Positions 7,111 to 50,694 of a DNA stretch of 64,000 nt are shown here, in pieces. The DNA comes from Acidobacteria bacterium SCN 69-37 (GTDB lineage Bacteria > Acidobacteriota > Vicinamibacteria > Vicinamibacterales > SCN-69-37), in contig MEDJ01000001.1 of the NCBI GenBank assembly GCA_001724025.1, forward strand, positions 248,001 to 312,000, given 5' to 3'. Position numbers and translations under genes: made by a program. The notes beneath the pieces were generated by a model. It was not told the origin of the DNA. It saw only the letters and a program-made list of their open reading frames with translations, and ran no database searches. Position 1 is the stretch's first letter, and each line of letters opens with the position of its first letter.

Positions 7111-7140
7111 CGGAGCCCTGAGGGCTTCAGCCCCAGGGGG
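7111..7140. repeat. REP-like palindrome, degenerate copy
   Basis: A variant of the window-wide palindrome: CGGAGCCC, then TGAGGGCTTCAGCCCCA and GGGGG. One stem position is altered. It lies between tRNA-Leu and the end of the nitroreductase gene. Confidence 0.8.
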
Positions 7141-25566: not shown

Positions 25567-25593
25567 CGGAGCCCTGGGGCTTCAGCCCCAGGG
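25567..25593. repeat. REP palindrome
   Basis: A single near-consensus copy (CGGAGCCCTGGGGCTTCAG, completed by the inverted half CCCCAGGG) between the cytochrome stop and the start of the PQQ dehydrogenase on the minus strand. It may separate expression of the two genes. Confidence 0.9.
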
Positions 25594-40694: not shown

Positions 40695-40734
40695 CGCGGT
40701 CCGGGGCCGGCGATCTGCGGTATCGTTGCGCGAC

Positions 40735-41970
40735 ATGCGCATCACGCTGTTGACCAACGAATATCCGCCGCACGTCTACGGCGGGGCGGGCGTCCACGTC
40801 GAGTACCTGACCCGGGAACTGGCGGCCCTCGACGACCATCGTCACCAGATCGACGTGCGCTGCTTCGGCGATCAGTACGAACGGCACGGCAATCTCTCGG
40901 TCACCGGCATCGCGGCCCCGCCGGCACTCGGCGCGCGCGATCCGCGGCACGCCAAGTTCTTCGACACGGCGCAACGCAACCTGGCCATGGCCGCCGCGGC
41001 CGTCGACCTCGATATCGTGCACTGTCACACCTGGTACGCGCACCTGGCCGGCTGCCTGGTGAAGCAGCTCGCCGGCGTGCCGCTGGTGTTGACGACGCAC
41101 TCGCTCGAACCGCACCGGCCCTGGAAAGCCGAGCAGCTCGGCACGGCGTATCAGGCGTCGACCTGGGTCGAGCGGACGGCGTACCAGAACGCCGACGGCG
41201 TCGTGGCCGTGTCGCAGTCCATGCGACGCGACGTGCACGATCTCTACGGCGTGCCGTTCGATCGCATCCGCGTGATTCACAACGGGATCGATCTCGACGA
41301 GTACCGTCCCACCCTGTCGCCGGAGACGCTGGAAGCGCTCGACATCGATCCCGCCATCCCGTACGTGCTGTTCGTCGGCCGGATCACGAGGCAGAAGGGC
41401 ATCATCCACCTCGTGCACGCCCTTCGTCACCTGACGCCGGGTATGCAGGTCGTGCTCTGTGCAGGGGCACCAGATACGCCGGAGATTGCCGCCGAAATGA
41501 CCGAAGCTGTCGAGCGTGCGCGGGCCGCGACGACGAGCCGCGTGGTCTGGATCAGCGACATGCTGCCCAAGCCGAAGGTGATTGCCCTCTACACGCACGC
41601 GGCGGTGTTCGTGTGCCCGTCGGTCTACGAGCCGTTCGGCATCATCAACCTCGAGGCGATGGCGTGCGAAACGCCGGTCGTGGCCTCGGCCGTTGGCGGG
41701 ATTCCCGAAGTCGTCGATGACGGCCGGACGGGCCTGCTGGTGCCGATCGACGCCCGCAGCAGCACGGACGTCGAGCCGCGCGATCCCGAGCGCTTCGCGC
41801 GCGATCTGGCGACAGCAATCAATACGCTGATGGCCGATCCGGCTCGCCGCGCCGACATGGCCGCGCGTGCGCGCGATCGCGTCGAGCGCGAGTTCAGCTG
41901 GCGCAGCATCGCGCGCAAGACGCTCGACTTCTACGACGATCTCGCAGGTAACGGCCGGAACTCACGCTGA
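40735..41970 (+). CDS. GT4 glycogen synthase-like glycosyltransferase (GlgA/GlgM type)
   Basis: 411 residues. The N-terminal loop ITLLTNEYPPHVYGGAGVHV is the sugar-nucleotide binding motif of this synthase group, and VHCHTWYAHLAG is typical. The C-terminal domain has LFVGRITRQKGI and the catalytic E-x7-E motif in YEPFGIINLEAMA. It matches the actinobacterial-type ADP-glucose glycogen synthase, some of which make maltose-1-phosphate (GlgM), so glycogen/alpha-glucan metabolism is likely. TATCGT lies 8 nt before the ATG. REP elements begin 5 nt after its stop. Confidence 0.92.
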   Translation: MRITLLTNEYPPHVYGGAGVHVEYLTRELAALDDHRHQIDVRCFGDQYERHGNLSVTGIAAPPALGARDPRHAKFFDTAQRNLAMAAAAVDLDIVHCHTWYAHLAGCLVKQLAGVPLVLTTHSLEPHRPWKAEQLGTAYQASTWVERTAYQNADGVVAVSQSMRRDVHDLYGVPFDRIRVIHNGIDLDEYRPTLSPETLEALDIDPAIPYVLFVGRITRQKGIIHLVHALRHLTPGMQVVLCAGAPDTPEIAAEMTEAVERARAATTSRVVWISDMLPKPKVIALYTHAAVFVCPSVYEPFGIINLEAMACETPVVASAVGGIPEVVDDGRTGLLVPIDARSSTDVEPRDPERFARDLATAINTLMADPARRADMAARARDRVEREFSWRSIARKTLDFYDDLAGNGRNSR

Positions 41971-41975
41971 CCGCC

Positions 41976-42130
41976 CGGAGCCCTGGGGCTGGCGAGTCCG
42001 GATCCCTGGGGCCTCAGCCCCAGGGGAACGCCCCCCGAGGCTGAAGCCTCGGGGCTCCGACGAGCGACCGGCCGGAACCCAGAACCCCGGCGAGCGGACG
42101 GCCGGAGCCCTGGGGCTTCAGCCCCAGGGG
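41976..42130. repeat. REP/BIME cluster on the downstream side of the transposase
   Basis: One partial palindrome (41976-41990), a full copy (41999-42026), an inverted copy with CGAGG stem (42031-42059) and another full copy (42103-42130). The last ends 15 bp from the transposase stop codon. Spacer words such as CGACGAGCGACCGGCC recur in the cluster on the other side. Confidence 0.93.
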
Positions 42131-42144
42131 AACTCGATTCCCGC

Positions 42145-42660
42145 CTACGTCTTCCATCCTGGCGTCCAGACGGTGTGTCGTTCCCGCTCGAAGAACTCGA
42201 GTATGTCGGAACGACTGTAGAGGGTCGATCCCCAGTACGGATAATCGTCTGGCGAGTCCACGAGCCCTGCTCTCACGGGATTCGCCACGATGTAGCGGAC
42301 GACAGCGATGCGATCCTCGTCGCCGCGCAGCGTGCGATCAAAGAAGCTCGTCTGCCAGAGCCGTTCGCCTGTCCGCCGCCTGTGCGCATATCCCGTCACC
42401 TGCTTCAGCGACCTGACGAGCGTGCCAAGCTCCACGGTTGTCGCCTCGCTGGTCACGAGCGCGTGAACGTGATCGGGCATGAAGCAATACGCCGGCAGAT
42501 GGAACCCGTGGCCGAGACAGACGCGCCGCATCTGCGTCTCCACCGTGCGAACCACGTCGGCAGCAACGAACGTCCGGCGTCGAGAGACCGTGCAGCATGT
42601 GAGAAACACGGCCTGCGCTCCGATGTACTGCGTCGGCTCCAGTCGATGCGGATGCCCCAC
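42145..42660 (-). CDS. REP-associated tyrosine transposase (RAYT, Y1/HUH)
   Basis: About 171 residues. The HUH motif is MPDHVHALV (His-x-His), and the catalytic tyrosine is in KQVTGYAHRRR. The family end blocks GERLWQTSFFDRTLRGDEDR, VRYIVANPVRAGLVDSPDDY and YPYWGSTLYSRSDILEF are intact, so the enzyme should be active. RAYTs are single-copy IS200-like proteins that bind, nick and presumably spread REP palindromes. REP clusters flank the gene on both sides. The start is uncertain: GTG at 42660 (before HRLEPTQYIGAQAVFLT) or TTG at 42678; neither has a strong ribosome site. Confidence 0.92.
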   Translation of the reverse strand: MGHPHRLEPTQYIGAQAVFLTCCTVSRRRTFVAADVVRTVETQMRRVCLGHGFHLPAYCFMPDHVHALVTSEATTVELGTLVRSLKQVTGYAHRRRTGERLWQTSFFDRTLRGDEDRIAVVRYIVANPVRAGLVDSPDDYPYWGSTLYSRSDILEFFERERHTVWTPGWKT

Positions 42661-42694
42661 ACCAACCAGCGGACGCAAGCGACATGCCAGGTCG

Positions 42695-42907
42695 CTCGGA
42701 GCCCCAAGCTGACGCCCGGAGCCCTGGGGCCTCAGCCCCAGGCCCCCCCCCGAGGCTGAAGCCTCGGGGCTCCGACAAACGACGGCCGAGAGCCTCGGGG
42801 CTCCGACGAACAGTCGCCCGGAGCCCTGGGGCTTCAGCCCCAGGGAAACGCCCCGAGGCTGAAGCCTCGGGGCTCCGACGAACGACGGCCAGAGCCTCGG
42901 GGCTCCG
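42695..42907. repeat. REP/BIME cluster upstream of the transposase, about 100-bp tandem units
   Basis: Two consecutive units, each made of a CCCTGGGG-stem REP, an inverted CGAGG-stem REP and a half-element (AGCCTCGGGGCTCCGAC). Full palindromes start near 42717, 42743, 42818 and 42851; half copies lie at 42695, 42788 and 42891. A run of C residues at 42743 joins the first pair. The tandem structure indicates amplification by unequal exchange or transposase activity. The cluster occupies the intergenic space before the POTRA gene. Confidence 0.93.
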
Positions 42908-42961
42908 ACAAGTGAACGCCGCGTCGAGATCGACCGCGCCCCTGCGATACCCTGAGTTCCA

Positions 42962-44239
42962 ATGATTCGTCCCCGCCCCTGGCTCCTCGCCTTCGCGCTC
43001 GTCGTCTCCGCCACGTGGCCCGCGCTCGCGCAACAGGCATCGCCGCAGGGGCCGTGGCCGCTGGCCGAAGTGCACATCGAGGGGCTGCAGCGCTATACGG
43101 CGGACCAGGTGATTCGCCTGAGCGGCCTGACCATCGGCCAGGCCGTGAGGCTCGACCAACTCCAGCAGACGGTAAACCACATGGCCGGCACGGGCCTCTT
43201 CGCCCGCGTAGGCTTCGGCTACGAATCGCGGCCCGGCGGCCTGGTCGTGACGATGCAGATCGAGGAGCCCGTGTGGTCTGTGCCACTTGTATTTGACAAC
43301 AACATCTGGCTCACAGACGATGAGTTCGCGCGGGCGATGGCTGAGCAGGTGCCCGGCTTCGACGGGACGGCCGTCGAGGGCGGCGCGGCCAACGACTTCA
43401 TTCTCGCGGCGGCGCAGCGCATCCTCGACGCGCGCGGCATCAGGGGCCGCCTGGAGATCCTGCCGCGATTCGACATGGCGACGCAGACGATGCTCTTCAC
43501 CATGCTCGCGCGCGACACGACCGAACGCCTGCGCGTCTGCACCGTATCGTTTCCCGGCGCATCGATCCTGCCCGCCCGCACGCTCACCGAACTGGCCGAT
43601 CCGCTCTCACGTCAGGACTATTCGAAGACGACGACCGCGGCCGTCAGGGACGCGGTCGTCCAGGCCTACCGCCAGCGCGGCCACTGGCGGGCCGTCGTCG
43701 ACGCACCTGTCGCATCGCCGAGCTCCGGCGCCTGCACGGGCCTGTCGATCGCGCTCGCGGTCACGGAAGGTGCGGCGTACGATGTGGGCGGCACGCGCTG
43801 GACCGGGACGACGGCAGTCGCGACAGCGGACCTCGATCGCGCACTCGATCTCCGCATCGGATCGACGGCCGACAGCCGGCGGCTCTCCGCGGGACTCGCG
43901 GCGGTCGAGCGGCTGTACCACGCGCAGGGGTATGTGACGATGGCCACGGGCGTGACGGCCGACTTCGACGAAAACGCGCGGCGCGTGACGTTCGTCATCG
44001 AGGTGCGCGAGGGCCCGCAGTTCCGCATGGGGACGCTGTCGACCATCGGGCTCTCCGATCGACAGACCAGCGACCTCACGCGCCGCTGGCGCCTGGCCGC
44101 CGGTGACGTCTTCGATGGTCCCTACTACCAGCAGTTCCTGCGCGCCCAGAGCGAGCGCATCGGCGGTGGCCTGCGGGGCGAGGCCAGGCTCAATCCCGAG
44201 ACCGCCATCGTCGACGTGACGTTCTCTGTCGGGGGCTAG
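42962..44239 (+). CDS. Periplasmic multi-POTRA protein without barrel
   Basis: 425 residues with a signal peptide (LLAFALVVSATWPALAQQ). POTRA-like modules follow one another: PLAEVHIEGLQRYTADQVIR ... MQIEEP (about 32-101), a second to about 180, a third with YRQRGHWRAVVDAPVAS, a fourth with YHAQGYVTMATGVTADFDEN ... IEVREGP, and a fifth reaching the C-terminus. It ends after the last POTRA with no barrel strands. It resembles the periplasmic half of BamA/TamA and may act as an assembly chaperone or partner. TACCCT lies 8 nt before the ATG. Confidence 0.8.
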   Translation: MIRPRPWLLAFALVVSATWPALAQQASPQGPWPLAEVHIEGLQRYTADQVIRLSGLTIGQAVRLDQLQQTVNHMAGTGLFARVGFGYESRPGGLVVTMQIEEPVWSVPLVFDNNIWLTDDEFARAMAEQVPGFDGTAVEGGAANDFILAAAQRILDARGIRGRLEILPRFDMATQTMLFTMLARDTTERLRVCTVSFPGASILPARTLTELADPLSRQDYSKTTTAAVRDAVVQAYRQRGHWRAVVDAPVASPSSGACTGLSIALAVTEGAAYDVGGTRWTGTTAVATADLDRALDLRIGSTADSRRLSAGLAAVERLYHAQGYVTMATGVTADFDENARRVTFVIEVREGPQFRMGTLSTIGLSDRQTSDLTRRWRLAAGDVFDGPYYQQFLRAQSERIGGGLRGEARLNPETAIVDVTFSVGG

Positions 44240-44296: not shown

Positions 44297-44354
44297 CGGA
44301 GCCCTGGGGCTTCAGCCCCAGGGGACGCCCGAGAGGCCAAGCCTCGGGGCTCCG
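44297..44354. repeat. REP plus degenerate inverted REP, overlapping a coding end
   Basis: A consensus copy (44297-44324) followed by an inverted copy with a damaged stem (GAGAGGCCAAGCCTC). The pair overlaps the 3' end of the minus-strand methyltransferase, whose stop codon at 44312 lies inside the first palindrome. Confidence 0.9.
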
Positions 44355-50535: not shown

Positions 50536-50694
50536 CCCCTGAGGCTGAAGCCTCAGGGCTCCGAGCCCCAACGGGCCCCCAATCGGCGTGCGAGCGAGCG
50601 AAGGCGACGACGGAAGGCGCCTGGAGCCCCGGGGCTTCAGCCCCAGGGGGCACGCGTGCCAACTGTTCCCTGAGGCCGAAGCCTCAGGGCTCCG
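50536..50694. repeat. Three REP elements behind the vapC remnant
   Basis: Inverted copy (50536-50563, CCTGAGGCTGAAGCCTCAGG), direct copy (50622-50649) and inverted copy (50668-50694). The stems here use TGAGG rather than CGAGG, with matching changes on both sides, so the palindrome is preserved. No gene is seen from 50467 to 50837. Confidence 0.9.

Follow-up and report, generated by a model that had tools for sequence, protein, structure and literature searches.

Do the short palindromes crowded around a tyrosine transposase gene in this acidobacterial DNA belong to that transposase, and what would it read in them? We addressed this question in the window, that is, the whole stretch of 64,000 nucleotides that was analysed, and in the rest of the genome. 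In our best explanation, to which we give a probability of roughly 0.87, the locus is a REPtron in which a single chromosomal RAYT, of the group 3 / subclass 2.5 type, goes with about 330 cognate REPs and REPINs, in a Vicinamibacterales acidobacterium, with a changed guide.

The RAYT gene and the hairpins around it

The sequence-only reading had placed a complete RAYT on the minus strand at 42145-42660, and our results bear this out. The frame is intact and contains the HuH histidines H64 and H66 (MPDHVH), the WQ pair (W102 and Q103) and the catalytic Y123 (YIVANP), and the protein scores 108.9 bits against NF047646, the NCBIfam equivalog for REP-associated tyrosine transposases (cut-off 80). 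Its Pfam profile is PF01797 (Y1_Tnp), of which it is the single match in the genome (4,432,721 bases, 25 contigs). H64, H66, W102, Q103, R112, Y123, N127 and P128 are invariant among 31 relatives. An AlphaFold2 model, based on an alignment with 30 relatives, has a mean pLDDT of 91, and the top PDB match, alike in both fold and sequence, is 4er8 (E 1.6e-10, TM 0.69), which is the E. coli RAYT (TnpAREP) in complex with a REP hairpin. The protein thus has the catalytic residues and the fold of a RAYT.

According to the signatures of PMC6006769, the protein possesses the class-2 Y--NP motif, the conserved WQ and the guide-contact Arg, while the class 3 signatures Y----Q and W[TA] are absent from it (YIVANP and WQ are found instead). 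The assignment to group 3 / subclass 2.5 comes from YIVANP, WQ, D108 at the position of E100, a perfect 10-bp stem and a TTNA loop; the motif given as DH[LF]H in the group-3 table reads DHVH in this protein. The guide loop is WQTSFFDRTLR (102-112). An autonomous insertion sequence of the IS200/IS605 type, or a TIR-flanked tyrosine transposase (TIRYT), would have the HuH-Y1 superfamily in common with this protein, and TIRYTs have been recorded in Koribacter, Terriglobus and Acidobacterium (PMC3733652). We nevertheless find either one hardly credible here: the score against the IS200 equivalog NF033573 is 36.6, under the cut-off of 55, the signature is the class-2 YIVANP and not Y---Q, a single transposase copy stands against 328 hairpins in the genome, and the flanks hold clusters of 22-bp hairpins and no long TIR pair.

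These 22-bp palindromes occur in the window as stem types A (CCCTGGGGCTTCAGCCCCAGGG, read on the plus strand) and B (CCCCGAGGCTTCAGCCTCGGGG, read on the minus strand), together with half-copies. The hairpin is built of a 10-bp stem and a 2-nt loop (4 nt if folded as DNA), with the foot at the edge of the palindrome, and an unpaired GGAG stands at the 5' foot of every intact window copy except one. A lenient REP pattern matches the window 27 times over both strands, where shuffles predict 0.02 matches. The features of the locus are the following.

40726-41970: glgA-like glycosyltransferase gene, neighbour
41971-42961: whole RAYT/REP block, 991 bp
41977-41991, plus strand: partial REP of type A (foot GGAG and first arm)
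42004-42025, plus strand: REP, type A variant with foot GGAT, the sole exception in 32 sampled contexts
42033-42058, minus strand: REP of type B, GGAG foot
42104-42129, plus strand: REP of type A, GGAG foot, 15 bp off the RAYT stop
42145-42660, minus strand: RAYT / TnpAREP (HuH-Y1 tyrosine nuclease), 171 aa, GTG start
42707-42911: tandem pair of ~103-bp units, upstream cluster
42718-42743, plus strand: REP, type A variant, GGAG foot; upstream cluster, unit 1
42748-42773, minus strand: REP of type B, GGAG foot; upstream cluster, unit 1
42794-42806, minus strand: half REP of type B (foot and one arm)
42820-42845, plus strand: REP of type A, GGAG foot; REPIN partner of 42851-42876 (A-> 5 nt <-B)
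42851-42876, minus strand: REP of type B, GGAG foot; upstream cluster, unit 2
42962-44239: POTRA-domain protein gene, neighbour

Further REPs lie elsewhere in the window.

7117-7138, plus strand: solitary REP 3' of a nitroreductase gene
25568-25593, plus strand: solitary REP of type A, 14 nt 3' of a cytochrome c7 stop codon
39038-39095: REPIN B-> <-A, 5' of a TPR protein gene
44298-44323, plus strand: solitary type A REP, methyltransferase gene (3' end)
50537-50689: three-REP cluster (type C, CCCTGAGGCTTCAGCCTCAGGG, and variants) 5' of a UPF0102 gene

Next to the RAYT, the REPs form A-> <-B pairs with their feet pointing outward. Palindromes on both sides of the gene, as claimed earlier, are confirmed: the nearest ends 15 bp from the stop, and the RAYT start has its closest full copy at 61 bp and a half-copy at about 35 bp. 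The REPIN at 42820-42876 makes one 63-nt hairpin (DNA fold -27.1 kcal/mol, z -6.57). The upstream cluster had also been described as two tandem units of about 100 bp produced by recent amplification. Two units of about 103 bp are indeed present, but the word "recent" finds weak support, because they differ by about 10% (identity at 91 of 104 aligned columns). The linker shared by these units turned up at no sampled REP site other than the RAYT locus, so the duplication is local; the 103-bp unit, or the half REPs, as a genome-wide BIME unit was therefore rejected.

Within the 64-kb window, REP sites are intergenic or at the 3' end of a gene. The copy at 44298-44323 covers the stop codon (44312) and the last codons of the minus-strand methyltransferase gene, which means that REP sequence encodes the end of that protein.

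Copy number and foot across the genome

Counting the palindrome across the genome had been put forward as a check on the RAYT/REP reading. With the foot left free, the hairpin pattern gave 328 matches, compared to 1 in a reversed control. The foot is GGAG in 306 of them (93%) and GT[AG]G in none of the 328. We then read 32 distinct contexts sampled without any condition on the foot: 31 have GGAG and one has GGAT, the hairpin centre is TTCA, save for one copy in which a C stands for one of the Ts, position -5 holds 29 C and 3 T, and position -6 is a pyrimidine (T or C) in 30 contexts and never G. Among the matches listed (100 genome sites), at least 8 REP pairs are convergent and close, with gaps of 5-28 nt, and at least 4 are divergent B/A pairs with gaps of 51-54 nt. 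This spacing is REPIN/BIME geometry.

Published REP definitions demand a GT[AG]G foot (PMC3686654, PMC6006769), which the window hairpins do not have, whereas a short palindrome at the foot, more than 100 copies, inverted doublets and copies flanking a RAYT are all present. Other recorded feet are CGTC (PMC3733652) and CnGA (PMC6006769), and degeneracy of the second position to C is on record for some REP families (PMC3733652). In a literature search of limited range, we found no record of GGAG-tagged REPs in PMC2817692, PMC3686654, PMC3733652, PMC6006769 or PMC8266576. The core of the sequence-only reading, a RAYT with its own REP palindromes, therefore holds, but the departure of the foot from the published definition had gone unremarked. 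The REP definition applied in the surveys consulted demands GT[AG]G (or CGTC), so GGAG systems, with about 300 copies here, would escape them. REP/RAYT systems have already been recorded beyond enterobacteria and pseudomonads (PMC6006769, PMC3733652), so the mere occurrence of one in an acidobacterium is not new. What is new is the GGAG address of this REP/RAYT system; GT[AG]G was abandoned several times independently, and this is one of the cases.

We considered whether the foot could be unchanged, the real tag being either GTGG two bases farther out (GTGGAG) or the class-3 CnGA in another register. Some GTGGAG copies are found in the relatives L054 and L059, Pseudomonas REPs have GT[AG]GGAG ahead of the stem (PMC3686654), and most copies in the window have CGGAG and so include CGGA, a form of CnGA. 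However, the bases at -5 and -6 in the sampled contexts leave GTGG absent, and GGAG is the sole part of the foot common to all members of the window's own RAYT clade (clade I, below) and to the separate GGAG lineages, while CGGA is not shared by the relatives. The class-3 register is further opposed by the lack of Y----Q and W[TA] in the protein. An unchanged foot is accordingly quite improbable to us.

In another reading, the hairpins would be ordinary RNA elements, such as terminators or mRNA-stabilising structures, and their closeness to a transposase gene would be incidental. Their stems are rich in G+C, and several solitary REPs stand just 3' of stop codons (nitroreductase, cytochrome c7 and methyltransferase genes). 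A terminator has no need of the one-sided unpaired foot seen in 93% of the copies, though, and what is conserved downstream is not a run of Ts. In addition, the hairpins are paired as A-> <-B REPINs, an Rfam search with them gave no family match, and RAYT and hairpins co-occur among genomes. All this makes the RNA explanation very improbable.

Relatives, foot changes and residue 107

The REPs of homologous transposases had been named as a second check, and the closest homologues are indeed flanked by related palindromes. The four nearest RAYTs, all from other genera, also have GGAG-REPs on their flanks, with different stems. In the same GTDB family, the RAYTs of G011, G005 and G001 (three other genera) are 43-48% identical to that of the window and flanked by GGAG hairpins, and the farther RAYTs L036, L037 and L038 have GTAG hairpins on their flanks. 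When hairpins were collected with the foot left free, the share of GGAG was 155/173 in G001, 38/45 in G005, 33/34 in G011, 31/41 in G006 and 8/11 in G012, beside the 306/328 of the window's genome (G000). More than 30 GGAG-REPs occur in 4/4 family genomes with a clade-I RAYT versus 1/10 without (14 genomes; Fisher p ~0.005, calculated by hand). RAYT and hairpins are thus linked, but the linkage is not absolute, because G006 (same family, 93% complete) holds 31 GGAG-REPs among its 41 hairpins and no clade-I RAYT was found in it. Its REPs are possibly an orphan population left by gene loss, or its assembly is possibly incomplete. L135, from another family of the order, is the fifth clade-I member and has a GGAG hairpin.

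Other observations were made on these relatives. A RAYT locus common to clade-I members was not found in the short contigs compared. The hairpins at the RAYT loci L083 and L142 are identical. L159, L172 and L136, RAYT relatives of the order, each have one internal in-frame TGA, and a single internal TGA or TAG in several such relatives is consistent with decaying copies. Most of the family genomes G004-G013, but not the window's genome, also hold another RAYT-like group of greater length, with open frames of 216-320 aa and ~30-37% identity across residues 44-149.

The congener G003 (same genus, 99% complete) has neither RAYT nor REP hairpins in a genome search. It has the TPR gene, glgA and the POTRA gene in the order of the window, and its glgA protein is 77% identical to that of the window. 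There, the start codon of the POTRA gene lies inside the end of glgA (11-base overlap, ATGCCCGGTAG), and the 991-bp RAYT/REP block is absent. From this comparison, gain of the block in the window's lineage would be a simpler reading than its loss in G003. Gain and loss are not polarised, because this gene order is shared by G003 alone: no third genome has the glgA-POTRA order, G001 has its POTRA homologue at another place, and no match was obtained in the remaining family genomes.

The lack of the whole system in a congener could also mean that the RAYT is an inactive relic and the REPs are fossils of an earlier spread, and the divergence of the genome's REP stems into several types points the same way. 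Against this, the frame is intact, the catalytic and guide-contact residues are all in place, and exact copies of types A and B are still numerous. We judge a relic unlikely and continue with a RAYT that has its own GGAG-REPs.

We analysed foot type over a set of 158 RAYT loci representing 112 distinct proteins. The foot was called from hairpins at most 500 bp from the RAYT, oriented via the TTNA loop if present; at loci with 1-2 hairpins, the call comes from few copies. On a tree of 80 RAYTs (IQ-TREE; 66 with GT[AG]G and 14 with GGAG), the foot changed between GT[AG]G and GGAG four times, and three of these changes are forced by strong branches. Clade I groups the window's RAYT with L053, L054, L059 and L135 (branch support 100/91). 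A tree constrained to place all GGAG RAYTs in one clade was rejected (p-AU 0.011), and with it a single origin of the GGAG foot.

A scan of alignment columns showed that residue 107 separates the two foot types best. Tryptophan is found there in 9/14 GGAG RAYTs (9/9 proteins in three of the four GGAG lineages) versus 0/66 GT[AG]G RAYTs, in which the residue is Y, H or F; the five proteins of clade I, the window's own, have F107 and not W. In the AlphaFold2 model, residue 107 is predicted to open strand beta-4, and it aligns with W99 of E. coli TnpAREP, in the foot-contacting loop of that enzyme, where Q95 and E100 on either side are guide-contact residues (PMC6006769, PMC8266576). E. coli TnpAREP thus has W at this position, yet its foot is GTAG. 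With only three independent contrasts on strong branches, the link between residue 107 and the foot is not significant by itself. A search for the codon pattern WQEGYW[D/E] in 396 genomes of the phylum returned only loci already in the RAYT set, which gives no out-of-sample support. In these alignments, residue 107 is a lead as a possible foot determinant and not proof of one.

Some hairpins oriented by their loop have other feet: TGCGG (L122, nine copies), GTGAG (L144), GGTCAC (L113) and GTAAC (L125 and L128). Guide variants beyond GT[AG]G and GGAG thus appear to exist. At L065 (JAKFYH010000042.1), 13 GGAG-REPs in one orientation, mostly spaced by 37 bp, lie downstream of a clade-II RAYT, from 12 bp before its stop to about 500 bp past it. 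Six more REPs spaced by about 48 bp lie on the upstream side, and this tandem array is unusually regular.

We tentatively propose a broader reading, about which we are more doubtful than confident. The guide of acidobacterial REPs may have changed at least three or four times at its second base, from GT[AG]G to GGAG, with the CT-choosing bases kept, and the enzyme may have followed by an aromatic swap (W or F at 107) in the guide-contact loop, so that RAYTs would be re-addressable. If this is true, the REP address and its enzyme would form a natural, testable recognition code, with GCGG, GTGAG, GTAAC and GGTCAC as further addresses to read.

Proposed mechanism and known systems

Enzymes of the TnpAREP family cleave single-stranded REPs by HuH-Tyr chemistry (PMC8266576). 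In the mechanism that we propose, the HuH-Y1 nuclease of the window would bind REP hairpins extruded from single-stranded DNA and would read the TTNA loop together with four bases of the 5' foot. Y123 would then cut a dinucleotide beside the hairpin, strand transfer would follow, and REPINs (A-> <-B, feet outward) could in this way be copied or moved into other intergenic sites. We infer such cleavage, site choice and mobility for the window RAYT, as well as a role for its residue 107. The foot would act as the guide, with GGAG substituted for GT[AG]G.

In Marinomonas, the group-3 TnpAREP selects a T-T-N-A loop and the foot guides cleavage, positions 3 and 4 (A, G) directing it to CT and positions 2 and 4 (T, G) to CA (PMC8266576). 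GGAG keeps guide positions 3 and 4, so cleavage at CT is predicted and cleavage at CA is not; a GGAG guide might possibly gain CC. With the Stenotrophomonas TnpAREP, a change at position 2 (GCAG) nearly kills cleavage and leaves binding unaffected, which implies that GGAG RAYTs must have adapted. We propose the guide-contact loop around strand beta-4 as the candidate site of this adaptation.

These acidobacteria offer natural enzyme/guide pairs with a changed guide beside close relatives that keep GTAG, which makes direct swap experiments feasible. Such swaps would bear on how RAYTs read their hairpin and choose the cleavage site. G003, without the system, provides a clean comparison on the gain of REPINs by movement.

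The closest known systems are those of group 3 / subclass 2.5 in Pseudomonas, Xanthomonas, Stenotrophomonas and Marinomonas MWYL1 (PMC2817692, PMC3686654, PMC6006769, PMC8266576). The window system has in common with them the motifs YI[VI]ANP and WQ, a D where E. coli has E100, a short perfect stem, REPINs, one RAYT for hundreds of REPs, and a TTNA loop as in the Marinomonas REP. It differs by its GGAG foot, against their GT[AG]G, by V as the hydrophobic residue of the HuH motif (DHVH against DH[LF]H), and by its place in an acidobacterial clade with the motifs FFDRTLR and YPxWGS. With E. coli TnpAREP (RayT, 4er8; Y/Z REPs and BIMEs), it shares the fold, the inverted REP pairs around the gene and, as its residues suggest, HuH-Y1 catalysis. 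Unlike E. coli REPs, however, the window stem is perfect and bulge-free. The E. coli system cannot do without GTAG (PMC8266576), and its TnpAREP, unlike the window RAYT, has a C-terminal tail in which G160/E161 contact the final two bases of the guide. Class 3 TnpA proteins of Planctomycetes and Acidobacteria, e.g., Solibacter usitatus (PMC6006769), resemble the system by their acidobacterial hosts, high-copy hairpins and non-GTAG foot, but they have Y----Q, W[TA] and a CnGA foot where the window RAYT has Y--NP and WQ. Finally, the CGTC-tagged repeats (PMC3733652) are also short tagged palindromes of high copy number; they show no link to transposase genes, whereas the REPs of the window are linked to their RAYT.
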